Origin: Sinohyriopsis cumingii
Lineage: Eukaryota > Mollusca > Bivalvia > Unionida > Unionidae
NCBI GenBank assembly: GCA_028554795.2
Contig: CM068831.1
Coordinates: 29,974,659 to 30,038,658, forward strand
Reading direction: 5' to 3'
Length of the DNA stretch: 64,000 nucleotides
Positions 5,820 to 52,738 of the stretch are shown piece by piece. The position numbers and the translations under genes were made by a program. The notes beneath the pieces are model-generated. The model did not search any database. It was not told the DNA's origin and was given only the letters and a program-made list of their open reading frames with translations. Positions within the stretch are counted from its first letter, which is position 1. Each line of letters opens with the position of its first letter.

Positions 5820-7424
<1,605 letters not shown>

Positions 7425-7526
7425 GTGTGTGTGTGTGCAGGAAATAAATGCCTATAAGTGTATTAGTCAAGAATGTACATGGCTTTTGTGTTGACAATTA
7501 TTATTCAAACTAAGCTGATGTAACAT

Positions 7527-7528
<2 letters not shown>

Positions 7529-7599
<71 letters not shown>
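7529..7599. repeat. (AT)n microsatellite
   Basis: About 71 bp of pure AT dinucleotides, a little over 100 bp downstream of the larger array. Confidence 0.97.

Positions 7600-7601
<2 letters not shown>

Positions 7602-11638: not shown

Positions 11639-11693
<55 letters not shown>
11639..11693. repeat. (TC)n microsatellite
   Basis: About 54 bp of TC dinucleotides. A second (TC)n tract occurs in duplication copy B at 33194-33235, but at a different relative place. Confidence 0.97.
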
Positions 11694-35361: not shown

Positions 35362-35366
35362 TTTTC
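35362..35366. other. Candidate target-site duplication, left of element 2
   Basis: TTTTC immediately left of the left arm is matched by TTTTC at 50466-50470 immediately right of the right arm. If the final T of the right arm is shared, a 6-bp TTTTTC match is also possible. It is T-rich, so chance cannot be excluded. Confidence 0.5.
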
Positions 35367-35672
35367 AGTAGTATAGAAGATTGGGAATTCAAACACAGAT
35401 GACCCAACGAGACTGCTGCAAGGGAAAACAAGGGCTTGGGGGGAGCAATGAGAAACCAAGTAGAATGAAAAAATAAGAAAACTAGATGGATATACAAGGA
35501 GACCTAGATTAAGGAAAACCGTGGGGGAAATGAGAGGAAATCAAGAAGGAAATCGATGTTGGAAACAACTAGGACAACTACGGGAAAGTGAGATCTGATG
35601 CTGCGATGGGAAAACAGGTGATTTGTATGTATGAGAAACCAAGTATTAGAGAAACGGATATAAATATATAAA

Positions 35673-35680
35673 TATAAAAG
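35673..35680 (+). promoter_or_regulatory. TATAAAAG directly before the primase start
   Basis: TATAAAAG abuts the ATG at 35681. A similar TATA-like motif sits within 0-9 nt of other start codons in this element: 39388 (TATAAG), 40779 (TATAATG, overlapping the ATG), 45622 (TATAAAGG), and minus-strand TATAATATAGA before the PolB ATG at 45369. This suggests start-proximal promoters or very short leaders. Confidence 0.45.
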
Positions 35681-36562
35681 ATGCACCAGACAAAGATGTA
35701 CGAGTGCTATCGAACTGTTGCTGAAGCTGAACAATCATTGGTCCGAGATGGGAAATTTACATCGAAACCGATTGTGCAATGTGGGCGAGAATTTCATGTG
35801 TGGAACGGAGAGTTCACCGAACGAGAATTCAATGAGTGCTATCGCGGAAAGACATTTGTCAATGAAATCATTCCGAGATGCTGTCGACGGCGGCTAGTTG
35901 TTGATCTCGATGAAAAGAAACCAACGTTGGAAGTCAAGGCGATGTTCGCGGTGGAATATCCGGGGAAGAGAATCGAAATTGCTACGACGACGAAAGGCCA
36001 TCATGTCGTTGTGCCGGAAATCATCGTTGGTTACCAGCGGCATAAAAACATATTGGAAATGCTGGCGAGGAAATATGGCGAGAAATATGTTGATGCCAAC
36101 GCGGGGTTAAACAGTTTGAAACTGATGACAACGAAATCTGGGAAGGCAGGCAGTGTATGCAAAACATTATTGGACGGAGTATCGGCGTGGGACTCATTGG
36201 TGACCGTGCATGAAGAAGTAGATTATGTTGACTGGCGAGCTGAGCGAGTTATTGACACGGAGGAAATCGATCGGGATGACATTGAGCTGATATCTGCGGC
36301 GTTGACTGGCGAGCGAGGGCAAATAACTGGGATGATTGGGACGAGTGGACGAGCGCTGGTATATTCGAAACGACCAGGGCATTATTGTGAAATTTGTAAA
36401 CGGAGACACGGATACGAAGGAAACTATATCGCGGATAAATGTGATAATTGTATGATCTACGTTTACGATGATTGCTACAGAGTGAGATGCTGCAGAAATG
36501 GCACAGGAAAATATGTAACTGTTAATCGGCTGGAAACTGACGCTGGAAAAAAGCAAATATGA
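35681..36562 (+). CDS. Archaeo-eukaryotic primase with zinc ribbon (left arm)
   Basis: 293 codons. Motif I is the DxD in LVVDLDEKKP (Asp 75 and 77). Motif II is the sxH-like TKGHHVVVP (about 105-112). Motif III is VDANAGLNSLKLMTTKSGK (about 137-155), the D...N..LK pattern of viral primases. A C-terminal zinc ribbon follows: CEICKRRH (236-244), CDNC (254-257) and CC near 270. Such primases make primers for lagging or restart synthesis. The frame ends 20 codons into a region also open in the helicase frame, so primase and helicase probably formed, or still form, one chain. The start has a TATAAAAG directly upstream. It is duplicated in the right arm. Confidence 0.78.
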   Translation: MHQTKMYECYRTVAEAEQSLVRDGKFTSKPIVQCGREFHVWNGEFTEREFNECYRGKTFVNEIIPRCCRRRLVVDLDEKKPTLEVKAMFAVEYPGKRIEIATTTKGHHVVVPEIIVGYQRHKNILEMLARKYGEKYVDANAGLNSLKLMTTKSGKAGSVCKTLLDGVSAWDSLVTVHEEVDYVDWRAERVIDTEEIDRDDIELISAALTGERGQITGMIGTSGRALVYSKRPGHYCEICKRRHGYEGNYIADKCDNCMIYVYDDCYRVRCCRNGTGKYVTVNRLETDAGKKQI

Positions 36563-36710
36563 GAAATACGTGCGAGGCTGGTCGAAATATCCTGGGGAAT
36601 TTACGTCGAGAACACCTGATGAGGAATACAGTGAACCGCCAGCACATGAATCCGGGAAAGGTTGCAAACGAATATATGACAGAGACTACATCGATGGATC
36701 TTACTGAGGT

Positions 36711-37901
36711 ATGGGAAAATCTGAGGCAGCATGGGATGTTATTCACGCGAATGAATCAGCGGTGATATTCACGTATAGAAAAACACTGTCGAGCAAGATC
36801 GCCGCAGACAATAAGTGTGAACACTATCGGGATATTATCGGTGATATAAAATTTAAACCAGGCAGTAATAGACGAGTTGTGGTACAAATAGAATCAATTG
36901 GGCGAATAAGTGGAATTCCTGATAACGTTTATGTGGATGAACTTCACGGAATTTACAGGCATATCTTTGCGAAACGGGCTAGTGAGAGCCGCCGAATATG
37001 GGATGGATTTAAGACACTTGTAATGCTGGCAAAACAATTTATAGCGCTAGATGCTGATGCTGATGATGTTGATGCTAAGATATTTCGGTCAATGGGAAGG
37101 AATGTGACATTTGTAATCAATAAATATAAACCAGACCACGGGAAGAAGTTTATTGTAATAAATTCGCATCAAGACAACATCGATGCGATGTGGAAATATC
37201 TAGAAGATAATCTAGAGGCGAAAATAGTTGTATTTGCTCATCGGAAACATAAAAATAAATTCTCTGTAGAGGAAATTGCTAAGGAAGCACAACGACGAAG
37301 AATAACAGTGAAGTATTATCACGGAGACACAAATAGGGCACAAAAACACGCTGATTTCAGTGACACCACGCGGGCTTTTGATGAGGCAAGAATTGTAATT
37401 TACAATCACACGCTGGAAGCCGGAGTAAGTATCGTAAACGAGAAATTTAATCGGTGTTATGTGTTTTCCAGCGAGATGAATTCGGCCGAGGCAACAAAAC
37501 AAGCTATTCATAGATTCAGAAATGTAAGTGAAATATATTATTCGTCAGCACGAACAGGACCAAAATCGGGATATTTGGATCTGACCGAGCAGGATATCAT
37601 CGCGCGAATTGTACAAAATGAGGAAATGATGCCAGTGGAAAAAAGAAACATAAGAATACCAAGAATCGCAGACATCGAAGGCAGTTATGGAATCGCCTTT
37701 ATCAAGACGATGATAGAGCTGAACAACTCACGGAAATACTTCACTGCGAGATTAATCAAGATGATGGCGGAAACGGGATATGAGATCATAGAAACACCGC
37801 CAGACAGTTATGAGGTTTGGCTGGAAAAACAAAATGCCGCTAAATACAAAAAATGTTTGGTGACTGGCAAGATGATATCAACGTTGACCCGTGGCTGTTA
37901 A
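36711..37901 (+). CDS. UL9-like (herpes origin-binding type) SF2 helicase (left arm)
   Basis: 396 codons from the first internal ATG. Helicase motifs appear in order: the end of Walker A (GMGKS), Ia-like FTYRKTLSSKI, Ib-like VVQIESIGRI, a DExH box (VDELHG, about 74-79), III-like FIALDAD, IV-like VVFAHRKHK, V-like NHTLEAGVSI and VI-like QAIHRFRN. Spacing and wording are those of Herpes_ori_bp helicases, which unwind origins. The frame is open upstream to at least 36543, but a TGA at 36705-36707 sits inside the P-loop. This is either a true lesion shared by both arms, a recoding site, or a splicing problem. It follows the primase. Confidence 0.75.
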   Translation: MGKSEAAWDVIHANESAVIFTYRKTLSSKIAADNKCEHYRDIIGDIKFKPGSNRRVVVQIESIGRISGIPDNVYVDELHGIYRHIFAKRASESRRIWDGFKTLVMLAKQFIALDADADDVDAKIFRSMGRNVTFVINKYKPDHGKKFIVINSHQDNIDAMWKYLEDNLEAKIVVFAHRKHKNKFSVEEIAKEAQRRRITVKYYHGDTNRAQKHADFSDTTRAFDEARIVIYNHTLEAGVSIVNEKFNRCYVFSSEMNSAEATKQAIHRFRNVSEIYYSSARTGPKSGYLDLTEQDIIARIVQNEEMMPVEKRNIRIPRIADIEGSYGIAFIKTMIELNNSRKYFTARLIKMMAETGYEIIETPPDSYEVWLEKQNAAKYKKCLVTGKMISTLTRGC

Positions 37902-38644
37902 AATCTGTAGGGGAACGAATAAAATATTCCATGAGCCCAAAAACGGATGAGGAATTGACGCGATATGACGATGACGACGAATATGATATTTTAGAGGATC
38001 TTGACAACTACGTTGAGCCACAGGAGAAAATTGGATATTACAGGTATAATCCAGAAAAAAGGTATGATGATCCGTATCAGGACAAGCATATGTTTCTGTG
38101 TTACTTTTATCAACGGAATATCGACAAAGATTCGCCGGAAAAGATTGAGAAAATGTATAAGGAAACTAGCATCGTAACAAGAAAACGTAATAAAAGGATT
38201 TCCGAATACACGGACAACGATGACATTTATGACCCGGAAGATGATCATAGTGTAAAGCTCTATACAGGAGCCATAAATAAATTAGTCAAGAAAGTGCTCG
38301 ATGATTGTGGACTTCCCGACGAGATAAGTTGCGGCCAAGAGAGTGTGAAAATTGACCTTGATAATGCGGCGAAAAAGATAATCAGTGAACCCGCGGATTA
38401 TCAGCAGTTAATAAAATATAGAATCATCCCACGAAGAAATAAAATGTTAACGGTGAATTCTGTTCGTGGCGGACTGAAGCAACTATACAAGTATTACGGC
38501 GGAAAGGTCATCGGGGAAAGAATCGATCATAAAAGCGCCGCAGACTACACGTTATACTATATACGCGAGCAAAAACCAGATTGTTTTGATATGAAACTCT
38601 GGCGAGAAACTCTCATCGAGGACGACAGGCAGGAAAAGACATAA
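37853..38644 (+). CDS. Acidic protein overlapping the helicase 3' end (left arm)
   Basis: 263 codons, overlapping the helicase by 49 nt in the -1 frame, with its ATG at the end of an A-run (37848-37853). The N-terminal 60 residues are very acidic (Asp/Glu/Tyr-rich). The rest is mixed and basic, with no motif I can name. It is most likely the C-terminal region of the primase-helicase polypeptide, reached by -1 slippage on the A-run or separated by an indel. Alternatively it is an overlapping gene. Compared with the right arm, an 8-bp deletion near 38626 ends this copy about 35 codons early. Confidence 0.55.
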   Translation: MFGDWQDDINVDPWLLKSVGERIKYSMSPKTDEELTRYDDDDEYDILEDLDNYVEPQEKIGYYRYNPEKRYDDPYQDKHMFLCYFYQRNIDKDSPEKIEKMYKETSIVTRKRNKRISEYTDNDDIYDPEDDHSVKLYTGAINKLVKKVLDDCGLPDEISCGQESVKIDLDNAAKKIISEPADYQQLIKYRIIPRRNKMLTVNSVRGGLKQLYKYYGGKVIGERIDHKSAADYTLYYIREQKPDCFDMKLWRETLIEDDRQEKT

Positions 38645-38754
38645 TTGCTGTTGATGACGAGACCGCATGGTTAAAGTTTTATATCTGGATGGCCAATAAG
38701 TGGTTTCAACAATATGATGATGACATAGAAAGGTTTGTTTATTAAAATAATATC

Positions 38755-38805
38755 GGGGAAAAGTGCTAAAATTAATATTTTTTATAGAATTTTACACTTT
38801 TCCCC
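38755..38805. terminator. Long hairpin downstream of the primase-helicase block (left arm, copy 1)
   Basis: The inverted repeat GGGGAAAAGTG(C)TAAAATT / AATTTTACACTTTTCCCC has an 18-bp stem, one bulged base and a loop of about 14 nt. A second near-identical copy lies at 38967-39018. Its position after the last codon suggests a 3'-end or processing signal, but a replication role is equally possible. Confidence 0.6.
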
Positions 38806-38966
38806 AAGGGTCTGACGGTGAAACTGACCCTTCGTTGATCGCCGAGAAATACATCGCGAGGTGACAAACAAAAATATGTTGATGACGCGGACAGCAACGC
38901 TGTCAATGACGAATAGACACTTCGTTGGCCATTGATGACTCCGGGAAGTGAATGTTTGTCGAAATC

Positions 38967-39018
38967 GGGGAAAAGTGCTAAAATTAATATTTTTTTATAG
39001 AATTTTACACTTTTCCCC
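38967..39018. repeat. Second copy of the GGGGAAAAGTG hairpin (left arm)
   Basis: Same stem as 38755-38805 with one extra T in the loop, 160 bp downstream. The spacer between them holds further GC-rich short repeats. Confidence 0.7.
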
Positions 39019-39398
39019 TTTTATGTGATAACTCTAATACTTGTGGTGTTCTGAGGCCGTTATGTCGGCGGAATTCCTCGATGAAATGTCGCGAGGTAAC
39101 AAGCAAATAACCCTTCGTCGTTGTTGACGTCGCGAGGTAATGTGTGTTGATTAAAATAAAGCGGGGCAAAGTCGCAGAAATGCAACATATATATGTTTTG
39201 CGACTTTCGCCACTTTGATAGAGGCCTTATCGCGGTGTTCTGACACCGTTATCACGGCCGATGACGTCATCAAACTGGCGTCGTCGCGGTGTTCTGACGC
39301 AACGATGACTGCTGGCGGCGGTGAGAGAATCATTTATGAAATTACCTCGCGGTCGTCGCCGTTGTTGTAATTAGATATCACATGTAATATAAGAGATA
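39019..39398. other. Intergenic region with repeated GGTGTTCTGA motif (left arm)
   Basis: It contains three copies of a GGTGTTCTGA motif, two of them followed by CGTTAT (39047, 39233, 39286), and CpG-rich text such as tcgcgaggta. A third hairpin is at 39161-39210 (GCAAAGTCGCA pairing with TGCGACTTT) preceded by AATAAA. The GGTGTTCTGAGGCCGTTATG version recurs near 41733 in the unique core. Confidence 0.55.
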
Positions 39399-39827
39399 AT
39401 GATGAACCCAGCACACCTCATTGTTCATCGACCAGGTGAAATCCCGCATGAAATTCACAGCAATCTTAGCGGCTATGATTTGTCTCATGTGAAAATAAAT
39501 AAAGATTCTCGAGACGGCCCCGTCGCTGAAAGAAAAATACCCGATGGTGGAAAACTCAATTTCTATCCTGTCGTTGACAGATCGGTAGAAGCAAGAAAAA
39601 GACTGGCATGGAAGAATTATGTAAAAAATCTCAATTGCGCCGACGACAAGGACAAATATCGAAATAGTGTTCCTGATGATAAAATGTTTCTCATGTTTCG
39701 ATTTAACGTTGATGGGTCTTGTATTTTAACTTATGAACCCGCACCGTGGATACCCAAGCATCAGCGCGCGCTATGGACGAGTGAATATCGCAATTTCATT
39801 ACGCGATGTTTAGCGGCGCGAGGCTAA
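39399..39827 (+). CDS. Small protein of unknown function (left arm)
   Basis: 142 codons, intact, almost identical to the right-arm copy (two or so changes near residues 77-80). It has an N-terminal MMNPAHLIVHRPGEIPHEIH segment, a central lysine/arginine-rich part and an aromatic C-terminus ending with CLAARG. No transmembrane segment or known domain was recognised. A TATAAG lies 5 nt before the start. Its 3' end overlaps the convergent cysteine-rich gene by 18 nt. Conservation of the open frame in both arms argues that it is a real gene. Confidence 0.6.
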   Translation: MMNPAHLIVHRPGEIPHEIHSNLSGYDLSHVKINKDSRDGPVAERKIPDGGKLNFYPVVDRSVEARKRLAWKNYVKNLNCADDKDKYRNSVPDDKMFLMFRFNVDGSCILTYEPAPWIPKHQRALWTSEYRNFITRCLAARG

Positions 39828-40087
39828 AAAAAACAAAATCGCGCGAAGATTAATGAGCAACAATTTCAACTTGTTGCTGTTGTGTTTTTTTTTCGGCCGA
39901 TAATTCGCGAGGAACTCTTCCACGGTCGGTGTTTTCGTGTTCCAGTCAAGTGATCTCAATTTTCTGTTGCTGTAATAAGTAAGCGCTGCCCGGTAAGCAT
40001 GACGACCACAACCGCTACAAATTGGTATTTTGCCGCGGACTCCAATCCCGCATTTCAAGCATGGTTTCGCGCCGGCGTTAGCTCCCG
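39810..40087 (-). pseudogene. 5'-truncated copy of the cysteine-rich protein gene (left arm)
   Basis: The left-arm version of the gene that is complete at 45630-46010. The palindrome boundary at 40087 removes its first 34 codons, including the first cysteine cluster and the start. What remains is the CLKCGIGV...CSGCG half and the basic C-terminus. The truncation is structural, not a point mutation. It shows which arm carries the original arrangement. Confidence 0.8.
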
Positions 40088-40378
40088 CAGTTTCTCATTT
40101 TCCGCTGACAAGTATTTTAACGCCTCGATGAGTTCATCGATGGCATCCAACGATGATTTATTCGCTGCGATTATTGCTTTGCTCTCGGCAGGTTCTCGTC
40201 GTAAGTCGGCCTCAGTTGTGTTTTCGGCGACAGGAGGATCCACAGAAGATTTCCAAATTTGATAAATCCGATCAAAACTGATTTTATATTTACGGGCGAT
40301 TGTCGATATTGAAATTTTATTTTTGCTTGCTATGATATCGTTGATATCATCTTGATTTAACAGCACACGAAAGGGCAT
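40055..40378 (-). CDS. Helix-turn-helix protein running into the arm boundary
   Basis: 107 codons. The N-terminal 43 residues form a homeodomain-like/transposase-type helix-turn-helix (ISTIARKYKISFDRIYQIW). A linker and a predicted coiled coil follow. The last 10 or so codons cross the palindrome boundary at 40087 and read the arm in a new frame (…RNHA, stop), so the natural C-terminus was replaced. It is paralogous to the protein starting at 40783: both begin MP.R..L, share I.RRY/RKY..I…R.Y.IW and have a coiled coil. Likely a DNA-binding regulator or replication protein. Confidence 0.6.
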   Translation of the reverse strand: MPFRVLLNQDDINDIIASKNKISISTIARKYKISFDRIYQIWKSSVDPPVAENTTEADLRREPAESKAIIAANKSSLDAIDELIEALKYLSAENEKLRELTPARNHA

Positions 40379-40782
40379 TTTATGATAATCGCGGCATTAA
40401 TTGAAATAACAATAATAATTTCTCGCGCGGGGATTTATATCGTTAATTGGTTTTTCTTATTCTGAGTTATATATCGCGCGGTGATGAGATTATAGCATAA
40501 ATCTTGGAATCGGCGAAAACAATAGAATCCTCGGAAATTATAGCGCGTCGAAGTATTTCCAGTGTTTTATCGTCGTTGATGAAAAACCTGGTTTTCCGTG
40601 AAACACTGGTTTTATTCACAACTCCATAATTGCCGTTGCCGTCATGTTTTCGCTATAATTTTCCACATGATTATTTCATAATATTTCCATGATTTTTCCA
40701 ACGTGATTAACAAACGCCGATAATTTTCATCGTTGTTGATGTTGCCGTAATTTTTGTCATAATTTTTCTTATGATTTTTATA
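40379..40782. other. Intergenic region between divergent HTH genes
   Basis: About 400 bp, AT-rich with CpG-containing patches (tctcgcgcggg, tatatcgcgcggtga). No open frame was seen. As the space between two divergent DNA-binding-protein genes it is the best place for their promoters, and perhaps for an internal origin. Confidence 0.4.
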
Positions 40783-41637
40783 ATGCCTGCCCGAGCAACA
40801 TATCTATCACCGAAACAAGAGCTTGAAATATTTCAACTGCGCGGCAAATGCAAAGTTATGGACATTTGTAGGCGCTATCATATTGGGACGCGACGATGCT
40901 ACGAAATATGGGCGCGCGATAACAGCGTTGTTGAATTTCCTGCTGCGTAGAAAGGGATTACCGGAGGCGGCAGCGAACGAGCCAATGCGGCCAAAGATGC
41001 CATTAATTCCCTTGATGAAATATTGTCGCTGCAACAGTCAAAACTTGCCGCGATGAACTTGCGCAAGGTCGCGTTGGAGAATAACATTGCTGTGCGAGAA
41101 ATTACAATCAACGAACTTGAACAACTTAACATCGACCGAGAACAAGTAGCGCGTGAATTAACTGCGGCCAAGAGCGCCATTGAGGAACTTGCTGCGTTAC
41201 AACAACGGGTTCGTGACAGTGAATCAACCGCGGATGAACTAAACACACGGATGACTGCGCTGACCACGAAGATAGCGCAACAACAAGAGGATCTCATCGA
41301 TAACACGGCTCAATTTGATCGGTTAACGCAGATATCACATGAGAAACGCGACGAGATTAATGTTATCCGCGGCGATATTGACCGAAGTAATGATGAAATT
41401 GCGAATCTTCTTCAGCAGAAAACGGCGAATAAAAGTCGTATCGGTAAACTGCGGGGAATTATTGAAAAGCAAGCAATAAAAATCAACGACGGAGAAAAAA
41501 TAATCGCAGAAAATCAGAAATTTATTGATGACCTTCATTGGAAACAGCGAACACAACAACAGGTGCTAATAAAAGAATCAATCGAGGATATTCTGACGTG
41601 GACGTTGATAGATCAGAGCCAGGCAATGATGAATTAG
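40783..41637 (+). pseudogene. Helix-turn-helix plus long coiled-coil protein, interrupted by one TAG
   Basis: One frame of 285 codons with a single in-frame amber (40948-40950). The N-terminus is a helix-turn-helix paralogous to the 40378 gene (DICRRYHIGTRRCYEIW). After the amber comes a long heptad-type coiled coil (41023 on) rich in Glu, Gln, Leu, Ile and Arg, then a short C-terminus ending DQSQAMMN. TATAATG overlaps the start. Either the amber is a recent nonsense mutation, or it is read through. Otherwise two proteins are made, with 41023 as the second start. Confidence 0.6.
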
Positions 41638-41670
41638 CGCGCCATGGAAGTGTTTGTTGATTAAAATAAA

Positions 41671-41723
41671 GCGGGACAAAGTTGGAGAAATTCATTATAT
41701 ATATGTTTTTGCCACTTTGCCCC
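41671..41723. terminator. Hairpin between the convergent coiled-coil and PolB genes
   Basis: Imperfect inverted repeat with a GCGGGACAAAGT left stem, an ACTTTGCCCC right stem and an AT-rich loop, preceded by AATAAA (41664-41669). It lies between two convergent stop codons and is related to the arm hairpins at 39161-39210 and 46610-46659. A bidirectional 3'-end or termination signal is the simplest reading. Confidence 0.5.
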
Positions 41724-41775
41724 TTTTGTTATTTTGGTGTTCTGAGGCCGTTATGTCGGCGTTTTGGGAGTTGTT

Positions 41776-44700
41776 TCAGCGTTGCCATAATGGCCCAGTT
41801 GTGTTAATTCCGTCGCGGGTAAATCTCTTGTCGTCAAAGTTATTTAGTCCAACTTTTGTAATTTCGTCGGTGACGACTTCATGACGATATGATCTGAAAC
41901 CTCGCGTCGTTACAGTTTGTAATGCAGCACCAGGAGTTCTCGCCAACGCGTCCAAGTAATCATCGAAAGTTAGTTTGGTTTTGACATAGAAGTTATTTAC
42001 TCCTTTTGCCTTCTTCACGACGGCATCACCGCGAAAATCCGGCGAATTTTCCGTGACAATCGCATACATTTTTGACCTGAGTCCGCAGAATTCGCGAATT
42101 GGTCTAAACGCAAGCTCATCTTTGAATTTACCAATTACTTTCTTATTTGTTGCATCATGAAATTTCCCGTTCACGTCTGACAAATCAAACAACTCGCGAC
42201 AGTCAAATATTTCTTGATAAAGATCGTCACAGACAACCTCATACACGAGTGAATCAGTGTCTGTCATTAACAACGTTGACGCCGGAAACTGCTTCTTGAA
42301 AAATCCATAGTGAAAATCATACATAATTGTCTTTGACAGATCTAGTATCGCCGCGCCAACATAAATCGGTTTGTTCAGATTTACTGTCCGTTGTTTTCTT
42401 GTGATCAGCGTCAGTCCATCAGATATTATCTTCGTGTGCTGAAAACTGTTGTCACGAACTAGTTTATTGCGCCTGACAACGTTATTTACGATCTCGACGT
42501 TGACTCGCCTGTGCACGTTTTCCATGGTCTTCCCGAACACAGAATTGTTCATCAGCTTGAAGAAGTCTTTTTCGAAGTCTGTCTTCGCCGCAGTTCTTCG
42601 CGCGGTATTCGCGTCAATATAAGATTTCAGCCAACAACGCTGATTAAACTGCAGCACACGATGAACTTTCTTCAGAACAAGACCAGCGTCTAGTGCCTGT
42701 TTCAACAACGCCCAATGGCAAATGTAATTGCGCTTATCGAATAAACTCGGGACTAATTTGTTATACGGGCAACCTCCATTTGTTCGCAGCGCCAATTGTT
42801 GCCGCGACAACATATCATCTCGTATTACAAGATGTTCTGGCAAAAATGGATAACAATTATGATAATCATATAGCGTGGCCGGATATTCAACGTCGACCTC
42901 AACGAAATAACCAACGTCGGGATCATCTTTCGTCGCGGCATTAAATTCTTCCGGGGTGATCCATTTGAAACCGCCGTATGGCAACGGCGCCGACATAGCA
43001 GCTTCGTAAAGATTATTCGTGTCTATGTAACAAATATATTTGCTGTCGCTGGCAGGATCAAAGTCGTGCAGGTATTTGTTGTTGGCGCAGGAATATTTCT
43101 TTGTTATCACGGAAATTCCCCCGCGAGTCCCTTTCTCGATGAACAAGTACATGTCAGGATCTGTGAGCAGCTCAAGCTTGACCTGCGAGTGTTTCAGCGC
43201 TGCGTCCCAAGAAAGTCCAGGCGCAGAGAAATAATACGCGGGATCAAGTCGGTACTGCGTCGCTGATGTTACCCTGAATTCCTCGAAAACGTCAGTCAAC
43301 AACAACACGTCCAACTGCAGATAAGCGTCGTGATAATCGCCGAAGTTCTCGCAGTGAAAATTGTCCCACGTGGTAAGTGCTCGTTGATACTGTTCGTCGG
43401 TGATATCACTGTTGTACAGCGAAGAATAAAATGCTAGTCGCGGCGGAAGTGAACGCTCGTGGAAGATCCAAGGTCCAGTGAAATGCTCATAAGGGAATAT
43501 TCCCTTGAAGATCTTTTCGTCGCAGAATTGCTCAGGAAAATACTTCTTGGTGTATCGCAAATTACTACAGTTTCGCGCCAGATTATCCAACGAAGAATTC
43601 AGGAATTGTATACTGTCAATGAATCTTAACTTGCCAATGGTCAGCGATAACAATTTCTCAGAATTGTTTGGAATACAACTAATCTTGATGTTGTTGTCGT
43701 TGCAGTATTTGATTGTCTCAACATGACCAAGCGCGCGAAGAATGAAGTGTCCGTCATAACCTCGCAGATTATGAAATACAACGGGAATGAACTTTTGAAA
43801 TTGCCTACAGCGCTCATGAACAGCTCCGATATATTTGTCCGCGAAAACATCAGCAAGAGGAACTTTCTCTGCTGCCGCCAATAGTTTTCTGCAGCAATAA
43901 CACGTATTTGCAGATTTGTATGATCCAAATTTGCGATACTTTTCGCCGACGTCAAGTATCTTTTGTATTCGCGCCTGTTCCGCAAACAGATATTTCAACA
44001 TATGCACTTCTGGCGGCAAATCGTGGCCGTGATTGACACGATAAGCAGGAGATAGCGCTGAGTATTTGTCGTCGACGCAGACTGTATTCAGACAATAACT
44101 CGCAGGAATATGTTGTTGAACGCGTCTAGTATATCGCGACCTGCGGTTGGAATTCACCGGGACAATAAACGATTCAAAGTCGCCATAGATGATAAATGGC
44201 ATTTTGATCTCGCGCTGTTGTCGTCGAAAACATAGAATATTGTTGTTGACTGGCGGAGTAGCCACTGCGGGTTGTTCATAACAGTATTTGTTATGTTCGG
44301 CAAGTTTCTGCGGACTGGCATGTCCTGTCAAGCAACTATAACAGAAATACATCTTACCGTGATGAGCTGTCACTGATGAACTTGCAAATCGACTAAAATC
44401 TTTTATCCAGCAGTAATGATTGTTCCACAACAGTAGATTAATCGCCGAGTCATCAATGACATGCTTGGCCGTAGGAGAAATATCGTACGGAACTGGTTTC
44501 AGCGACTCACTAAGGGTATAAACGTTTATACCACTGGGAAATAACTTCTGATTTTGTGCTTCGATTTGTTTGACTTGTTCTACAGGCGTCGGAAATTTAA
44601 TTCCTGTCAAATCAAGCACGTGCTGATGTTGCACATATTTGCTGACGCGATTAGCATTTTTCGCCGCGGGAAATAGCGCAGATAAAAGTGCCCACATCAC

Positions 44701-45369
44701 ACACTTCTGGTCGCTGTTCTTCACGTTCACGCAGGCTCGTTTTGCAATTATAACATCTGGTAACGGCAAATAACTTCCAACACGGGTCATACTAAACGCA
44801 GACGTGGTAACGTTAATACTGTTGACTTCGTCGACAGCCCAACCAGATCCTGGTATTTGATGTTGCTCAAATCGTCTTTCAATCTTGTGATGAAACACGT
44901 CAGCAACGCGATCAAGATCACTTGCTGAATAAACGGTTTGACCATTCGCGTTAAGATCTCGTTGTATCTTCTTTGTCGGATCACTTAGCGCTCGCATTTC
45001 AACGTCGTAAGTGACACTGACTTTTATCACTGGATGCTTCTTCAGCACCGGAGGTAGCACAGTCTTGATGATCTTTCGAAGATCTCGCTTGTCGAATCTG
45101 TTATATTTCGCCGAATCAGGAATAAACTTAAAAGATTGATCCAGACCACTGAATGATTGTTTGAGTTGAAATTTATCAAGTCTGTGTTGCTCTTGATGTT
45201 TGAATTCGGCCACAACACGGCGTTGTTTTCTGAGAAATTCTATCTTGGCCAGCATTTCTGCAAGTTGGGCATTTGATTTTGGCCACTCGGGTTTACCAGG
45301 AATAAGGTTTGATAGTGCATTTACGGCGTCACGGCGACGTTGCATTGCTGCCTTGATTCCACTTGACAT
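41776..45369 (-). CDS. polB: Protein-primed family-B DNA polymerase (Polinton type), intact
   Basis: 1197 codons without interruption. There is an N-terminal region of about 340 residues, then a zinc-finger-like CYSCLTGH...HNKYC (about 343-363). Exo I is GDFESF (about 396-401), Exo II NLRGYDGHF (534-542) and Exo III YLQLDVLLL (about 683-691). The TP-contact GTRGG lies near 747-751. Motif A is YIDTNNLYEAAM (781-792), motif B KLMNNSVFGKTMEN (938-951) and motif C TDTDS (1036-1040), followed by the conserved GLRSKMYA. All catalytic residues are present. The enzyme replicates linear DNA from a protein primer. TATAATATAGA lies just before the ATG. It is the only gene of its size here and it is intact, which argues for recent activity. 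Confidence 0.95.
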   Translation of the reverse strand: MSSGIKAAMQRRRDAVNALSNLIPGKPEWPKSNAQLAEMLAKIEFLRKQRRVVAEFKHQEQHRLDKFQLKQSFSGLDQSFKFIPDSAKYNRFDKRDLRKIIKTVLPPVLKKHPVIKVSVTYDVEMRALSDPTKKIQRDLNANGQTVYSASDLDRVADVFHHKIERRFEQHQIPGSGWAVDEVNSINVTTSAFSMTRVGSYLPLPDVIIAKRACVNVKNSDQKCVMWALLSALFPAAKNANRVSKYVQHQHVLDLTGIKFPTPVEQVKQIEAQNQKLFPSGINVYTLSESLKPVPYDISPTAKHVIDDSAINLLLWNNHYCWIKDFSRFASSSVTAHHGKMYFCYSCLTGHASPQKLAEHNKYCYEQPAVATPPVNNNILCFRRQQREIKMPFIIYGDFESFIVPVNSNRRSRYTRRVQQHIPASYCLNTVCVDDKYSALSPAYRVNHGHDLPPEVHMLKYLFAEQARIQKILDVGEKYRKFGSYKSANTCYCCRKLLAAAEKVPLADVFADKYIGAVHERCRQFQKFIPVVFHNLRGYDGHFILRALGHVETIKYCNDNNIKISCIPNNSEKLLSLTIGKLRFIDSIQFLNSSLDNLARNCSNLRYTKKYFPEQFCDEKIFKGIFPYEHFTGPWIFHERSLPPRLAFYSSLYNSDITDEQYQRALTTWDNFHCENFGDYHDAYLQLDVLLLTDVFEEFRVTSATQYRLDPAYYFSAPGLSWDAALKHSQVKLELLTDPDMYLFIEKGTRGGISVITKKYSCANNKYLHDFDPASDSKYICYIDTNNLYEAAMSAPLPYGGFKWITPEEFNAATKDDPDVGYFVEVDVEYPATLYDYHNCYPFLPEHLVIRDDMLSRQQLALRTNGGCPYNKLVPSLFDKRNYICHWALLKQALDAGLVLKKVHRVLQFNQRCWLKSYIDANTARRTAAKTDFEKDFFKLMNNSVFGKTMENVHRRVNVEIVNNVVRRNKLVRDNSFQHTKIISDGLTLITRKQRTVNLNKPIYVGAAILDLSKTIMYDFHYGFFKKQFPASTLLMTDTDSLVYEVVCDDLYQEIFDCRELFDLSDVNGKFHDATNKKVIGKFKDELAFRPIREFCGLRSKMYAIVTENSPDFRGDAVVKKAKGVNNFYVKTKLTFDDYLDALARTPGAALQTVTTRGFRSYRHEVVTDEITKVGLNNFDDKRFTRDGINTTGPLWQR

Positions 45370-45629
45370 TCTATATTATATGTTATACTATTATTCAAAT
45401 GGAATTTTATCATTTTTCAAATATCTATTTGATCCATCAGATCGGATAGCGAATAGTGCTATCAACGACAACACAGCATCACCAACAAAAAGTTCCCAAT
45501 GTAAGGTCGTCACGGGATATTTTGCTGATCTAGAATTGCATTTACCTCGGCAATAGTTGCTTCGGAAATATAGTGAATAATTATTATACCATATTTCTTA
45601 TTAAATATATATAACAGTTATTATAAAGG

Positions 45630-46010
45630 ATGCCTGAAAACAGATGTAAATGGCTATTTGTGGGTTCGACAGTTGTATGTGAAAAACCATGCGTCAATGA
45701 ATATTGTGCGATTCACGCATATTCGATGAGAACGGGAGCTAACGCCGGCGCGAAACCATGCTTGAAATGCGGGATTGGAGTCCGCGGCAAAATACCAATT
45801 TGTGGCGGCTGTGGTCGTCATGCTTACCGGGCAGCGCTTACTTATTACAGCAACAGAAAATTGAGATCACTTGACTGGAACACGAAAACACCGACCGTGG
45901 AAGAGTTCCTCGCGAATTATCGGCCGAAAAAAAAACACAACAGCAACAAGTTGAAATTGTTGCTCATTAATCTTCGCGCGATTTTGTTTTTTTTAGCCTC
46001 GCGCCGCTAA
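45630..46010 (+). CDS. Cysteine-rich, zinc-ribbon-like small protein (complete copy)
   Basis: 126 codons. There are two cysteine clusters: one near residues 6-29 ending in an EYC..H pattern, the other CLKCGIGV...CGGCGRH (about 44-62). Together they suggest one or two zinc-binding folds. A basic C-terminal half follows (KLRSLDW, then KKKHNSNKLK). The first 34 codons are in the unique core and the rest in the right arm. TATAAAGG directly precedes the ATG, and a longer TATATATAA lies 17 nt further up. Convergent with, and overlapping by 18 nt, the 142-codon gene. Function unknown; nucleic-acid binding is likely. Confidence 0.65.
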   Translation: MPENRCKWLFVGSTVVCEKPCVNEYCAIHAYSMRTGANAGAKPCLKCGIGVRGKIPICGGCGRHAYRAALTYYSNRKLRSLDWNTKTPTVEEFLANYRPKKKHNSNKLKLLLINLRAILFFLASRR

Positions 46011-46421
46011 ACATCGCGTAATGAAATTGCGATATTCACTCGTCCATAGCGCGCGCTGATGCTTGGGTATCCACGGTGCGGGTTCATAAGTTAAAATACA
46101 AGACCCATCAACGTTAAATCGAAACATGAGAAACATTTTATCATCAGGAACACTATTTCGATATTTGTCCTTGTCGTCGACGCAACTGAGATTTTTTACA
46201 TAATTCTTCCACGCCAGTCTTTTTCTTGCTTCTACCGATCTGTCAACGACAGGATAGAAATTGAGTTTTCCACCATCGGGTATTTTTCTTTCAGCGACGG
46301 GGCCGTCTCGAGAATCTTTATTTATTTTCACATGAGACAAATCATAGCCGCTAAGATTGCTGTGAATTTCATGCGGGATTTCACCTGGTCGATGAACAAT
46401 GAGGTGTGCTGGGTTCATCAT
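45993..46421 (-). CDS. Small protein of unknown function (right arm)
   Basis: 142 codons, the mirror copy of the 39399-39827 gene, differing near residues 77-80 (LSCVDD versus LNCADD). The frame is intact in both arms. The stop overlaps the convergent cysteine-rich gene. No domain was recognised. Confidence 0.6.
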   Translation of the reverse strand: MMNPAHLIVHRPGEIPHEIHSNLSGYDLSHVKINKDSRDGPVAERKIPDGGKLNFYPVVDRSVEARKRLAWKNYVKNLSCVDDKDKYRNSVPDDKMFLMFRFNVDGSCILTYEPAPWIPKHQRALWTSEYRNFITRCLAARG

Positions 46422-47074
46422 TATCTCTTATATTACATGTGATATCTAATTACAACAACGGCGACGACCGCGAGGTAATTTCATAAATGATTCTCTCACC
46501 GCCGCCAGCAGTCATCGTTGCGTCAGAACACTGCGACGACGCCAGTTTGATGACGTCATCGGCCGTGATAACGGTGTCAGAACACCGCGATAAGGCCTCT
46601 ATCAAAGTGGCGAAAGTCGCAAAACATATATATGTTGCATTTCTGCGACTTTGCCCCGCTTTATTTTAATCAACACACATTACCTCGCGACGTCAACAAC
46701 GACGAAGGGTTATTTGCTTGTTACCTCGCGACATTTCATCGAGGAATTCCGCCGACATAACGGCCTCAGAACACCACAAGTATTAGAGTTATCACATAAA
46801 AGGGGAAAAGTGTAAAATTCTATAAAAAAATATTAATTTTAGCACTTTTCCCCGATTTCGACAAACATTCACTTCCCGGAGTCATCAATGGCCAACGAAG
46901 TGTCTATTCGTCATTGACAGCGTTGCTGTCCGCGTCATCAACATATTTTTGTTTGTCACCTCGCGATGTATTTCTCGGCGATCAACGAAGGGTCAGTTTC
47001 ACCGTCAGACCCTTGGGGAAAAGTGTAAAATTCTATAAAAAATATTAATTTTAGCACTTTTCCCCGATATTATT
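46422..47074. other. Intergenic region with three hairpins (right arm)
   Basis: Mirror of 38756-39398. Hairpins lie at 46610-46659 (GCGAAAGTCGCA/TGCGACTTTGC type), 46802-46853 and 47015-47065 (GGGGAAAAGTGTAAAATT / AATTTTAGCACTTTTCCCC). The GGTGTTCTGA-type motifs recur in reverse. No gene is seen. Confidence 0.6.
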
Positions 47075-47974
47075 TTAATAAACAAACCCTTCTCTGTCAT
47101 CATCATATTGTTGAAACCACTTATTGGCCATCCAGATATAAAACTTTAACCATGCGGTCTCGTCATCAACAGCAATTATGTCTTTTCCTGCCTTTCCCGT
47201 GTCGTCCTCGATGAGAGTTTCTCGCTAGAGTTTCATATCAAAACAATCTGGTTTTTGCTCGCGTATATAGTATAACGTGTAGTCTGCGGCGCTTTTATGA
47301 TCGATTCTTTCCCCGATGACCTTTCCGCCGTAATACTTGTATAGTTGCTTCAGTCCGCCACGAACAGAATTCACCGTTAACATTATATTTCTTCGTGGGA
47401 TGATTCTATATTTTATTAACTGCTGATAATCCGCGGGTTCACTGATTATCTTTTTCGCCGCATTATCAAGGTCAATTTTCACACTCTCTTGGCCGCAACT
47501 TATCTCGTCGGGAAGTCCACAATCATCGAGCACTTTCTTGACTAATTTATTTATGGCTCCTGTATAGAGCTTTACACTATGATCATCTTCCGGGTCATAA
47601 ATGTCATCGTTGCCCGTGTATTCGGAAATCCTTTTATTACGTTTTCTTGTTACGATGCTAGTTTCCTTATACATTTTCTCAATCTTTTCCGGCGAATCTT
47701 TGTCGATATTCCGTTGATAAAAGTAACACAGAAACATATGCTTGTCCTGATACGGATCATCATACCTTTTTTCTGGATTATACCTGTAATATCCAATTTT
47801 CTCCTGTGGCTCAACGTAGTTGTCAAGATCCTCTAAAATATCATATTCGTCATCAGCGTCATATCGCGTCAATTCCTCATCCGTTTTTGGGCTCATGGAA
47901 TCTTTTATTCGTTCCCCTACAGATTTTAACAGCCACGGGTCAACGTTGATATCATCTTGCCAGTCACCAAACAT
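47075..47974 (-). pseudogene. Acidic helicase-associated protein with amber codon (right arm)
   Basis: 300 codons in one frame from the ATG at 47974, interrupted by a TAG at 47225-47227 where the left arm has a Trp codon. The final 50 codons (to 47075) are Trp/Tyr-rich. They are out of frame in the left arm because of its 8-bp deletion. It overlaps the helicase by 49 nt in the -1 frame after an A9 run. Each arm therefore has a different lesion in the same 3' region, and neither copy is complete. Confidence 0.6.
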
Positions 47975-49119
47975 TTTTTTTTGTATTTAGCGGCATTTTG
48001 TTTTTCCAGCCAAACCTCATAACTGTCTGGCGGTGTTTCTATGTTCTCATATCCCGTTTCCGCCATCATCTTGATTAATCTCGCAGTGAAGTATTTCCGT
48101 GAGTTGTTCAGCTCTATCATCGTCTTGATAAAGGCCATTCCATAACTGCCTTCGATGTCTGCGATTCTTGGTATTCTTATGTTTCTTTTTTCCACTGGCA
48201 TCATTTCCTCATTTTGTACAATTCGCGCGATGATATCCTGCTCGGTCAGATCCAAATATCCCGATTTTGGTCCTGTTCGTGCTGACGAATAATATATTTC
48301 ACTTACATTTCTGAATCTATGAATAGCTTGTTTTGTTGCCTCGGCCGAATTCATCTCGCTGGAAAACACATAACACCGATTAAATTTCTCGTTTACGATA
48401 CTTACTCCGGCTTCCAGCGTGTGATTGTAAATTACAATTCTTGCCTCATCAAAAGCCCGCGTGGTGTCACTGAAATCAGCGTGTTTTTGTGCCCTATTTG
48501 TGTCTCCGTGATAATACTTCACTGTTATTCTTCGTCGTTGTGCTTCCTTAGCAATTTCCTCTACAGAGAATTTATTTTTATGTTTCCGATGAGCAAATAC
48601 AACTATTTTCGCCTCTAGATTATCTTCTAGATATTTCCACATCGCATCGATGTTGTCTTGATGCGAATTTATTACAATAAACTTCTTCCCGTGGTCTGGT
48701 TTATATTTATTGATTACAAATGTCACATTCCTTCCCATTGACCGAAATATCTTAGCATCAACATCATCAGCATCAACACCTAGCGCTATAAATTGTTTTG
48801 CCAGCATTACAAGTGTCTTAAATCCATCCCATATTCGGCGGCTCTCACTAGCCCGTTTCGCAAAGATATGCCTGTAAATTCCGTGAAGTTCATCCACATA
48901 AACGTTATCAGGAATTCCACTTATTCGCCCAATTGATTCTATTTGTACCACAACTCGTCTATTACTGCCTGGTTTAAATTTTATATCACCGATAATATCC
49001 CGATAGTGTTCACACTTATTGTCTGCGGCGATCTTGCTCGACAGTGTTTTTCTATACGTGAATATCACCGCTGATTCATTCGCGTGAATAACATCCCATG
49101 CTGCCTCAGATTTTCCCAT
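47926..49119 (-). CDS. UL9-like SF2 helicase (right arm)
   Basis: 397 codons; mirror copy of the left-arm helicase with the same motif set. It differs at a few residues (for example ALGVDADD, SYGMAF, YENIE) and has one extra Lys at the A-run. It shares the TGA within the P-loop (49123-49125), so that codon predates, or was spread by, arm homogenisation. Confidence 0.75.
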   Translation of the reverse strand: MGKSEAAWDVIHANESAVIFTYRKTLSSKIAADNKCEHYRDIIGDIKFKPGSNRRVVVQIESIGRISGIPDNVYVDELHGIYRHIFAKRASESRRIWDGFKTLVMLAKQFIALGVDADDVDAKIFRSMGRNVTFVINKYKPDHGKKFIVINSHQDNIDAMWKYLEDNLEAKIVVFAHRKHKNKFSVEEIAKEAQRRRITVKYYHGDTNRAQKHADFSDTTRAFDEARIVIYNHTLEAGVSIVNEKFNRCYVFSSEMNSAEATKQAIHRFRNVSEIYYSSARTGPKSGYLDLTEQDIIARIVQNEEMMPVEKRNIRIPRIADIEGSYGMAFIKTMIELNNSRKYFTARLIKMMAETGYENIETPPDSYEVWLEKQNAAKYKKKCLVTGKMISTLTRGC

Positions 49120-49267
49120 ACCTCAGTAAGATCCATCGATGTAGTCTCTGTCATCTATTCGTTTGCAACCTTTCCCGGATTCATGTGCTGGCGGTTCACT
49201 GTATTCCTCATCAGGTGTTCTCGACGTAAATTCCCCAGGATATTTCGACCAGCCTCGCACGTATTTC

Positions 49268-50149
49268 TCATATTTGCTTTTTTCCAGCGCCAGTTTCCAG
49301 CCGATTAACAGTTACATATTTTCCTGTGCCATTTCTGCAGCATCTCACTCTGTAGCAATCATCGTAAACGTAGATCATACAATTATCACATTTATCCGCG
49401 ATATAGTTTCCTTCGTATCCGTGTCTCCGTTTACAAATTTCACAATAATGCCCTGGTCGTTTCGAATATACCAGCGATCGTCCACTCGTCCCAATCATCC
49501 CAGTTATTTGCCCTCGCTCGCCAGTCAACGCCGCAGATATCAGCTCAATGTCATCCCGATCGATTTTTTCCGTGTCAATAACTCGCTCAGCTCGCCAGTC
49601 AACATAATCTACTTCTTCATGCACGGTCACCAATGAGTCCCACGCCGATACTCCGTCCAATGATGTTTTGCATACACTGCCTGCCTTCCCAGATTTCGTT
49701 GTCATCAGTTTCAAACTGTTTAACCCCGCGTTGGCATCAACATATTTCTCGCCATATTTCCTCGCCAGCATTTCCAATATGTTTTTATGCCGCTGGTAAC
49801 CAACGATGATTTCAGGCACAACGACATGATGGCCTTTCGTCGTCGTAGCAATTTCGATTCTCTTCCCCGGATATTCCACCGCGAACATCGCCTTGACTTC
49901 CAACGTTGGTTTCTTTTCATCGAGATCAACAACTAGCCGCCGTCGACAGCATCTCGGAATGATTTCATTGACAAATGTCTTTCCGCGATAGCACTCATTG
50001 AATTCTCGTTCGGTGAACTCTCCGTTCCACACATGAAATTCTCGCCCACATTGCACAATCGGTTTCGATGTAAATTTCCCATCTCGGACCAATGATTGTT
50101 CAGCTTCAGCAACAGTTCGATAGCACTCGTACATCTTTGTCTGGTGCAT
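49268..50149 (-). CDS. Archaeo-eukaryotic primase with zinc ribbon (right arm)
   Basis: 293 codons, intact. It is identical to the left-arm primase except for about four residues (TSLDG, TEKID, GRSLVY, LETGAG), none of them in the DxD, GHH or cysteine motifs. A TATA-like stretch precedes the ATG but is altered next to it: the left arm has TATAAAAG, while this copy has the sequence complementary to 'cttttatatg'. Confidence 0.78.
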   Translation of the reverse strand: MHQTKMYECYRTVAEAEQSLVRDGKFTSKPIVQCGREFHVWNGEFTEREFNECYRGKTFVNEIIPRCCRRRLVVDLDEKKPTLEVKAMFAVEYPGKRIEIATTTKGHHVVVPEIIVGYQRHKNILEMLARKYGEKYVDANAGLNSLKLMTTKSGKAGSVCKTSLDGVSAWDSLVTVHEEVDYVDWRAERVIDTEKIDRDDIELISAALTGERGQITGMIGTSGRSLVYSKRPGHYCEICKRRHGYEGNYIADKCDNCMIYVYDDCYRVRCCRNGTGKYVTVNRLETGAGKKQI

Positions 50150-50465
50150 CTTTTATATGTATATATTTATATCCGTTTCTCTAATACTTGGTTTCTCATA
50201 CATACAAATCACCTGTTTTCCCATCGCAGCATCAGATCTCACACTTTCCCATAGTTGTCCTAGTTGTTTCCAACATCGATTTCCTTCTTGATTTCCTCTC
50301 ATTTCCCCCATGGTTTTCCTTAATCTAGGTCTCCTTGTATATCCATCTAGTTTTCTTATTTTTTCATTCTACTTGGTTTCTCATTGCTCCCCCCAAGCCC
50401 TTGTTTTCCCTTGCAGCAGTCTCGTTGGGTCATCTGTGTTTGAATTCCCAATCTTCTATACTACT

Positions 50466-50470
50466 TTTTC
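50466..50470. other. Candidate target-site duplication, right of element 2
   Basis: TTTTC, matching 35362-35366. Confidence 0.5.
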
Positions 50471-50515: not shown

Positions 50516-51836
50516 AAAGTTATAAAACAACCTTATGGAGATAGTCATAACTGAAAACAATAAATTTATTGTAATAGGGAATATTTTATAACATGTAATT
50601 ATTGTACGTTTTAATATAAAATGCGATCCCAGCCGCAACAAGTGGACAATGCTTTGAGCTTGAGCTTGCTAAAATTTGTTTGACTGAAGCCTCGTGCTCT
50701 TCGTCAGGTCTTACATAAACGTGTCCTTACTCATGTAGACTATTGTCACCTCTCCATAGTAATGTGTGACTTTCACCTGCGATGTGCAAAGGATGTCCCT
50801 GGTCTCTACAGCATGTGTTTAGGCCACCTCTCCTATCCAGATACTTGATAACCGTCTTCAGGATGAATTGGGGCACTTCGCAAACCTTGTCTCAAAATTA
50901 TTACCCCACGAAAAGATTTCTAATTAATTCACTCTGGCGTCCACTATTTTGGCCACTGAGGCTGAAGAGGCTGCAATATATATGTGCGATCGATGTGAAT
51001 TTGGAGGGTCGGTGCAAGTAAAAGTAACTCTACATGCGAGATACCATATTCGCATTAGTAGCGTTCTCGTAGTAGGGGCGATCAAAAGTATCAAAGTCGT
51101 ACATCATTTACTGTTTTAAGGCTCAAAAGTAGAATGGTTTCAGCATCTCTACCCTTTGTCATTTACGTCAAACTATTGACATCTTATACAGAACCTCCGT
51201 GCTTGAAAAATGTTGAATATTTTGGTTTCTAAGAAATATATTTTAGCTTTGATACTATAAATTTCTTTTTGTATATTTTAAACTGAAACCCTTCTGCACC
51301 AGAGTAATGTGCAAACTTTCTCGGTTTTTTATTACTAATGCATTGAACTGTTAATGAAAATGACCAAGCGAAGCTAGCAGCTTTTTTTGCGTAGATGCAA
51401 CGTTGAAGTAAGGACAAGCTGTATCTTCCATAACCAAATTACAACCATCAATCATGCATCAATAATGAAGCTAATTAAATGTTCTTTTTGCATATAAACG
51501 GCATGACCCCTAAACTTTAGGATTTATTCCGCTGGTGCGTCATAATAAGCTGTATTGGGTGGGGTTCAAATAAAAATGTTTCTGTCTTACCAGGTGGAAG
51601 TCTATACTCGACCAGAATGTGCTTTACTGTCTGTGGACATTGGCAGGGTAATAACTCTGGTCGAGGTTCACCCTACATGAAGTGTACAAAGTTCAGATAT
51701 GTGGATTGAAAAGGGGAGGATTTGTAGAAGACTGTTTAACTGGCAAACACCAAATATTAAACCAAAAAATTCCCAAATTACAATAAATTTATTGTTTTCA
51801 GTTATGACTATCTCCATAAGGTTGTTTTATAACTTA
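50516..51836. mobile_element. Candidate MITE-like element with about 55-bp terminal inverted repeats
   Basis: 50516-50574 and 51781-51836 are inverted copies of each other (the block ends in the self-complementary caataaatttattg and contains 'ttatggagatagtcataac'). They enclose about 1.2 kb with no convincing gene. A plus-strand frame of 79 codons at 50782-51021 has no known motif. This looks like a short DNA transposon or foldback unit next to element 2. Confidence 0.5.
51488..51763 (+). repeat. 276-bp inverted repeat, left copy
   Basis: Near-perfect reverse complement of 52463-52738. Shared text runs from 'ttgcatataaacggcatg' through 'gaccagaatgtgctttac' to 'caaatattaaacc'. Confidence 0.9.
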
Positions 51837-52462: not shown

Positions 52463-52738
52463 GGTTTAATATTTGGTGTTTGCCAGTTAAACAGTCTTCT
52501 ACAAATCCTCCCCTTTTCAATCCACATATCTGAACTTTGTACACTTCATGTAGGGTGAACCTCGACCAGAGTTATTACCCTGCCAATGTCCACAGACAGT
52601 AAAGCATATTCTGGTCGAGTATAGACTTCCACCTGGTAAGACAGAAACATTTTTATTTGAACCCCACCCAATACAGCTTATTATGACGCACCAGCGGAAT
52701 AAATCCTAAAGTTTAGGGGTCATGCCGTTTATATGCAA
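52463..52738 (-). repeat. 276-bp inverted repeat, right copy
   Basis: Mirror of 51488-51763 with only a few changes (for example agcatattctgg versus agcacattctgg in the matching strand). The pair is probably two copies of one transposon in opposite orientation, the second truncated. Confidence 0.9.

Follow-up and report, generated by a model that had tools for sequence, protein, structure and literature searches.

The window analysed here, a 64,000-nucleotide stretch of the genome of the bivalve Sinohyriopsis cumingii (contig CM068831.1, positions 29,974,659 to 30,038,658; C8:29974659-30038658 in our numbering of a 2.9 Gb assembly of 1138 contigs), contains a discrete mobile element of 15,099 bp in which 4.7-kb inverted arms flank a 5.6-kb core (35367..50465). 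This element is a copy, partly decayed, of a large mobile family that usually takes the form of a long palindrome, and that such a discrete palindromic family exists we regard as practically certain. The family probably represents a superfamily of integrating, replicon-only elements in which the palindrome is renewed at replication and whose commonest hallmark is a primase-helicase; the polymerase PolB lies in the core, lies in the arms, or is absent, depending on the member. The borders of the window element are as follows.

35367..50465, no strand: whole element, with termini AGTAGTATAG...CTATACTACT
35367..40087, plus strand: left palindrome arm, 99.2% identical to the reversed right arm
45733..50465, minus strand: right palindrome arm, pairing with the left arm
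35362..35366, no strand: left copy of the target site duplication, TTTTC, read outside the left terminus
50466..50470, no strand: right copy of the target site duplication, TTTTC, read outside the right terminus

An original prediction, made from the letters of this DNA, had described near-identical inverted arms around a core, and alignment of the arms bears this out: they are 99.2% identical over 4733 columns, with 28 substitutions (18 of them transitions) and 12 indel columns at three places. The element begins with AGTAGTATAG and ends with the reverse complement of this sequence, and TTTTC stands directly outside each end; a 6-7 bp reading of the duplication (CTTTTTC) is also possible, terminal bases of the element overlapping the target duplication. 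A search for further copies in the genome, as the prediction had advised, returned six more elements with both ends, similar termini and 5-bp duplications. Exact 5-bp duplications were present in all seven elements with both ends read: TTTTC in the window, AAACT at C465, TTATA at C8 (C8:20341674-20357502), TGTTT at C9, AGAAG at C17:27.22 Mb, GTTTT at C17:119.49 Mb and CCCGA at C7:52.15 Mb. These elements measure ~12.4-16.0 kb and have AG[T/C]AG[T/C] termini; the left terminus starts with AGTAGTAT in six of the seven and with AGCAGCAGG at C17:27.22 Mb, and the right terminus of the C17:119.49 Mb element reads AGTAGTAA. For the C8:20.34 Mb copy, the AGTAGT terminus was taken as the border; the aligned arm runs a few bases further out. 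The G+C content of the window element is 0.39-0.44 as against ~0.32-0.37 in the immediate flanks (0.44 is also reached elsewhere in the window), and the sign of the GC skew flips between the two arms.

The inverted arrangement recurs across the genome. Two scored genes within 25 kb were called a pair; the counts cover scored matches only and are hence lower bounds. With the helicase as query, at least 105 matches were scored among 719 candidates, giving 37 pairs (the window's included) and 31 unpaired matches; all 37 pairs were inverted, 24 being convergent, 13 divergent and none tandem. Among the matches listed, at least 7 of the 24 convergent pairs enclosed PolB, and none of the 13 divergent ones did. 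The search for the PolB-less C17 type scored at least 43 genes among 1203 candidates (47 match rows before split rows were merged by hand, 44 of them without stops); it yielded 16 pairs, all of them inverted and divergent, and 11 unpaired genes. When the two lists were merged, at least 135 genes made up 50 pairs, every one inverted (24 convergent, 26 divergent), with 35 genes unpaired. Likewise, all 10 matches to the terminal 634 bases of the window element fell into five inverted pairs, its own included.

The members are of several types. In type A (the window, C8, C9 and C465), the arms, 4,066-4,751 bp long in these four elements, carry the primase-helicase, and the core carries PolB and helix-turn-helix (HTH) genes. 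The C8:20.34 Mb copy has arms 99.96% identical over a 4,751-bp aligned piece, primase-helicase frames of 1071 amino acids (aa) in both arms and a 1206-aa PolB frame without stops; in the C9 copy, the primase-helicase frames are open and PolB is interrupted. Type B (C7:52.15 Mb) has PolB in both arms (5,759 bp at 99.9%) and no primase-helicase in the tested stretch L039, the mirror of L040; three more PolB pairs, at C6:4.06, C7:110.40 and C10:3.70 Mb, are inverted. Type C (C17:27.22 Mb) is a near-complete palindrome of a 14-kb element with primase-helicase and HTH genes, two stops in one of its two primase-helicase copies, and no PolB match by tblastn with three PolB queries. The PolB locus L041 encodes counterparts of two type C proteins, the HTH protein at 69% identity and the 118-aa protein at 46%, a resemblance that links the element types. 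By eye, the 118-aa protein of L041 and of C17:27.22 Mb (L046/L047) has a likely signal peptide and an LPGTP.SWY motif, and a frame next to the C465 capsid gene has a similar motif.

The primase-helicase gene of the window element consists of these parts.

35681..36562, plus strand: left arm, primase-like N-terminal part, 293-aa frame that aligns with relatives and has the invariant DxD and GxH
36711..37901, plus strand: left arm, part of the UL9-like superfamily 2 (SF2) helicase, 396-aa frame with an in-frame stop directly before Walker A
37853..38644, plus strand: left arm, C-terminal part of the primase-helicase, 263 aa, in another frame; relatives have it in frame with the helicase
47225..47974, minus strand: right arm, C-terminal part of the primase-helicase, 249-aa open reading frame (ORF)
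47926..49119, minus strand: right arm, UL9-like helicase part, with a stop before Walker A as in the left arm
49268..50149, minus strand: right arm, primase-like part, ORF

The original prediction had read a separate primase and helicase gene in each arm. In the relatives, however, the primase-like, helicase and C-terminal parts form a single frame of ~1050-1100 aa, and the gene of the window is split, broken alike in both arms by frame changes and by the stop before Walker A at the same place. Uninterrupted primase-helicase, PolB and HTH-coiled-coil genes are present elsewhere in the genome. The predicted Herpes_ori_bp type of the helicase is clear in the open-frame C8 and C17 proteins, which match that family above the curated cut-off of 20 bits (E=2.8e-12 and 1.7e-11, 46 and 43 bits); the match of the broken window helicase (E=0.0015, 17.1 bits) falls below it. 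For the predicted primase, motifs and position speak in favour: DxD, GxH and a later Asp, which we take to be the motifs of archaeo-eukaryotic primases (AEPs), are invariant in 11 of 11 members, and a Cys-x-x-Cys element is also present. Because Pfam, PHROGs and the PDB profile search leave the N-terminal domain unnamed, with no primase family above cut-off, we infer a primase from these motifs together with the fusions known between AEPs and UL9-like helicases. Such fusions occur in mimivirus R8, African swine fever virus F1055L, Ostreid herpesvirus 1 and some yaraviruses (PMC11253617). The likeness seen is one of architecture, an N-terminal primase-like domain joined to a UL9-related SF2 helicase; the protein described here also differs in having ~1070 aa and in belonging to a small integrating element. 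A protein search with the helicase part gave 8 proteins at E<=0.01 among 2350 candidates, six of them from the mussel Sinanodonta woodiana. With the whole C8 primase-helicase, one protein was found at E<=0.001 among 4764 candidates (1071 aa, 52% identical), and in IMG/VR no relative of the primase-helicase was confirmed.

Both arms and core encode further proteins.

41776..45369, minus strand: PolB, 1197-aa open frame, PF03175 at E=7e-23, with exonuclease and polymerase motifs
40055..40378, minus strand: small HTH protein, 107 aa, with weak HTH matches below cut-off and 38% identity to its L041 counterpart, likewise an HTH protein
40783..41637, plus strand: HTH-coiled-coil protein with one in-frame stop, 59% identical to an open frame in L032
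39399..39827, plus strand: 142-aa protein of the left arm, no family found
45993..46421, minus strand: right-arm copy of the 142-aa protein, ORF
45630..46010, plus strand: 126-aa cysteine-rich protein (zinc-binding-like) that is conserved among relatives

The Polinton-type PolB is intact, as had been claimed, and has exonuclease and polymerase motifs. Both HTH proteins of the original prediction were found, one of them in a frame with an in-frame stop and the other with weak HTH matches. An N-terminal DxxC...H motif of PolB is invariant in an 18-sequence alignment; terminal-protein and viral ovarian tumour-type protease (vOTU) domains have been reported at this end of protein-primed PolBs (PMC12721341), and by that comparison the motif possibly marks a vOTU-like protease. 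A protein search with PolB gave 31 proteins at E<=1e-5 among 8000 candidates scored. The claim that morphogenesis genes and an integrase are missing held in the ORFs scanned, where no capsid, packaging ATPase or protease gene was recognised. No integrase or transposase domain was found with Pfam in 8 ORFs of the window (small ORFs being partly covered and spliced genes possible), nor in two primase-helicases and six other ORFs of C8, C9, C465 and C17, nor in three further ORFs of C8 and C17; the HTH proteins scanned gave resolvase-type (HTH_7) matches only. A protelomerase was not found among the ORFs scanned either, and the integrated ends are open insertion boundaries.

How the arms stay alike can be read from comparisons between elements. 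Overall, arm identity within elements is ~99.0-99.96%; one script gave 99.80% for C465, 99.05% for C9, 99.13% for the window, 99.46% for C8 (with short internal repeats included) and 99.06% for C17:119.49 Mb (1698 bp). The arms of the sister elements C465 and C9, by contrast, show 84.7-85.1% identity whichever of the four combinations is compared. Arms that are ~99% identical within an element and ~85% between C465 and C9 thus indicate that each element homogenises its own arms. In the window and in C465, lesions are common to both arms, and these lesions must therefore be older than the most recent homogenisation: either other elements assist in copying the broken ones, or the arms convert after insertion.

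We favour the first course, in which the element would exist as linear extrachromosomal DNA for part of its cycle. The primase-helicase would open and prime this molecule, and PolB, probably protein-primed by its family, would copy it. At replication, one arm would be copied onto the other via fold-back (copy-back) or panhandle intermediates, so that the palindrome is renewed, which we consider somewhat more probable than its opposite. Integration could be provided by an integrase in trans or by an element protein of a kind not recognised, the HTH-coiled-coil protein being a candidate; that the elements encode the integration enzyme themselves is possible but carries appreciable doubt. Defective copies such as that of the window would be carried by proteins from other copies. 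A stronger version, with obligate palindromes remade in each cycle, the primase-UL9-type helicase as hallmark, PolB as an optional partner that the element types share in trans and a new element-encoded enzyme making the 5-bp duplication, we put forward tentatively.

Several points weigh against the favoured reading. Copy-back is deduced, since no replication intermediate, hairpin end or terminal protein has been seen, and PolB-less members show that PolB is not an engine encoded by all members. The primase call is motif-based, and the scan for an integrase covered part of the small ORFs. Post-insertion gene conversion could also give high arm identity, the shared lesions fitting both courses. 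Finally, for 35 of the 135 scored genes the matches listed include no second gene within 25 kb. Some unpaired matches are list artefacts: at C17:119.49 Mb, unpaired in the helicase list, the second arm is present with its helicase interrupted; C2:18.49 Mb, unpaired in the same list, gains a partner in the C17-type search; and a terminal stretch matching the unpaired C7:125.24 Mb copy lies 28 kb from it. At C5:126.24 Mb and C12:113.0 Mb, the 8 kb read on the side where a partner arm was expected contained none, and one-armed copies may thus exist. Near the unpaired primase-helicase of the latter locus (L055, C12:112992001-113000000), frames matching rve (E=4.2e-6, below cut-off) and a phospholipase A2-like family (E=1.9e-10) were also observed.

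Polintons (Mavericks) are the known elements with which comparison is closest to hand. The palindromic elements share with them a PF03175-type PolB, AGT-type termini, terminal inverted repeats (TIRs), target duplications and a size range like that of vertebrate Mavericks, which measure 12.7-24.6 kb and have TIRs of 46-1447 bp and 6-bp duplications (PMC8097293). They differ in arms of 4-6 kb instead of such TIRs, in duplications of 5 bp instead of 6, in the added primase and UL9-type helicase, in the optional PolB, and in the absence of a recognised integrase, capsid, ATPase or protease from the ORFs scanned. Of the features that define a Polinton, then, a PolB of protein-primed type is present by family; the rve integrase and the capsid set were not recognised in the ORFs scanned, and the duplication is not of 6 bp nor the TIR of Maverick length. 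Capsid-less relatives of the Maverick virus lineage are known (PMC8097293).

One alternative held open by the original prediction was that the element is a fragment of a larger, capsid-bearing Polinton. This we reject for seven elements, all of which end at their arms with a 5-bp duplication directly outside. The C465 element, with its own termini and AAACT duplication, in fact sits inside a Polinton-like locus, which outside the element contains a double jelly-roll capsid gene (PF21738, E=3.6e-20) and a below-cut-off adenoviral-protease match on one side and a fibre-like frame (by eye; no Pfam name) on the other. In a quick PolB tree of 35 rows (omitting rows <860 aa, L031 and L040), the window PolB and eight relatives from its own genome form one clade with a Shimodaira-Hasegawa-like approximate likelihood ratio (SH-aLRT) support of 100, and five of the eight (L034, L035, L036, L037 and L039) come from loci with an inverted pair. 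The other large PolB family of the genome is only ~23-26% identical to the window PolB over the matched stretch. That second family (e.g. L003-L010) has frames of up to 1363 aa, with at least 75 candidates scored of 21,499, and eight of its loci are ~94-96% identical among themselves. In IMG/VR, the single PolB gave no match and the PolB alignment gave two contigs. On L001, PolB is accompanied by an ATPase of the A32 type (E=5.6e-11), an integrase of the rve family (E=6.4e-8) and a capsid match that stays below cut-off; the neighbours on L002 showed weak P-loop matches only (Pfam) and a capsid-like frame without a match.

Other explanations of the palindromes have to be weighed against renewal at replication. 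The palindrome might have arisen once and the arms been kept identical by gene conversion after insertion, as in the palindromes of Y chromosomes. Lesions common to both arms in the window and in C465 are easily explained in this way; yet forms with the primase-helicase in the arms, with PolB in the arms and with almost the whole element as one palindrome share the mirror plan, a variety that points to a step by which palindromes are made repeatedly, and the highest arm identity (99.96%) belongs to an element with open frames, as expected of a recent insertion, albeit in a small sample. We consider post-insertion conversion unlikely. We think it slightly less probable again that the elements are deletion derivatives of Polintons, fold-back products without capsid and integrase that move with the help of a full Polinton. 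The genes beside PolB on the related contig L001, the Polinton-like AGT-repeat termini and the by-eye LPGTP.SWY motif common to the C17-type 118-aa protein and the frame beside the C465 capsid gene would fit such an origin. Set against it are the low identity to the genome's other large PolB family and the 5-bp duplication, which speaks against a Polinton integrase making 6 bp (the vertebrate Maverick value). Moreover, primase and helicase have no occurrence in the main text of a study of vertebrate Mavericks (PMC8097293), and PolB lineages down to ~51% identity are retained, those with an inverted pair seen staying palindromic; divergent lineages with one palindromic plan look like a long-lived form.

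An assembly artefact, in which one arm would be a false duplication of the other, had been named as a possible refutation. Long palindromes are generally prone to misassembly. The window arms, however, are set apart by 28 substitutions and by indels at three places; in all seven elements with both ends read, the target duplications flank the two arms on the outside; and the 50 pairs, all inverted, stand at separate genome sites. We judge an artefact very unlikely indeed.

Other systems resemble the palindromic elements in part. Capsid-less, protein-primed linear plasmids follow a replicon-only logic with PolB; they are mitochondrial or cytoplasmic and are not known to be integrated with target duplications or to have a primase-UL9-type helicase. 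Phages phiHAP-1 and VP58.5 are hairpin-ended linear prophages. Their RepA-type proteins (PHROG 4913) have a related helicase part (22.8% and 24.7% identity), and the phiHAP-1 gene lies near a gene annotated as protelomerase. The VP58.5 protein, however, has PriCT-2 and Toprim where the element protein has the DxD/GxH domain, and no protelomerase was recognised in the ORFs scanned of the palindromic elements; phage RepA was rejected as a close relative, the common part being the helicase only. Casposons are not known to encode a capsid and have short TIRs. They are likewise self-synthesising transposons with PolB, TIRs and target duplications, but are prokaryotic and use Cas1 as integrase (PMC4046053). 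Teratorn is mobile and has long inverted repeats and replication genes, but is a herpesvirus of 41-182 kb with a piggyBac-type transposase and 18-bp TIRs (PMC6431247).

The elements also have several copies of their own hairpin-forming intergenic repeat, with stems that vary among elements. In C465 (L043/L044) they lie at 243869-243963 and 246765-246858, in L046 at five places, and in the window, by repeat and hairpin analysis, at the following positions.

39136..39216, plus strand: hairpin-forming intergenic repeat, left arm
41646..41726, plus strand: hairpin-forming intergenic repeat, core, directly past the PolB stop
46604..46684, minus strand: hairpin-forming intergenic repeat, right arm

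These repeats are possible 3'-end or replication signals. Outside the element, two inverted-repeat pairs (51488-51763 / 52463-52738, 276 nt, 100%; 50517-50587 / 51765-51835, 71 nt, 93%) are perhaps small nested transposons. The flanking host DNA contains long ATT/AAT, AT and CT simple repeats at ~5590-5810, 7260-7600 and 11640-11690.

In conclusion, the view that the element matches no known class is supported as far as the searches reached. Among the papers listed, neither titles nor abstract openings contained a description of palindromic primase-UL9-helicase elements (Repbase and subscription papers lying outside the search), and the class is apparently undescribed. Beyond the original prediction, the 5-bp duplication fixes the ends, forms without PolB and with PolB in the arms exist, the primase-helicase gene of the window is broken, and arms are homogenised element by element. 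The finding extends the few known kinds of self-copying DNA element by a palindromic class that consists of a replicon only. It has been speculated in review that the joining of a polymerase and a primase could yield new elements, the polymerase there being nucleic-acid-primed (PMC6431247); the elements of S. cumingii are a concrete case in which a transposable element combines PolB with a primase-helicase. As a single genome contains at least 135 scored genes, the making and upkeep of palindromes become testable, as do insertion with precise duplication in elements with no recognised integrase and the exchange of replication genes among Polintons, linear plasmids and large DNA viruses.

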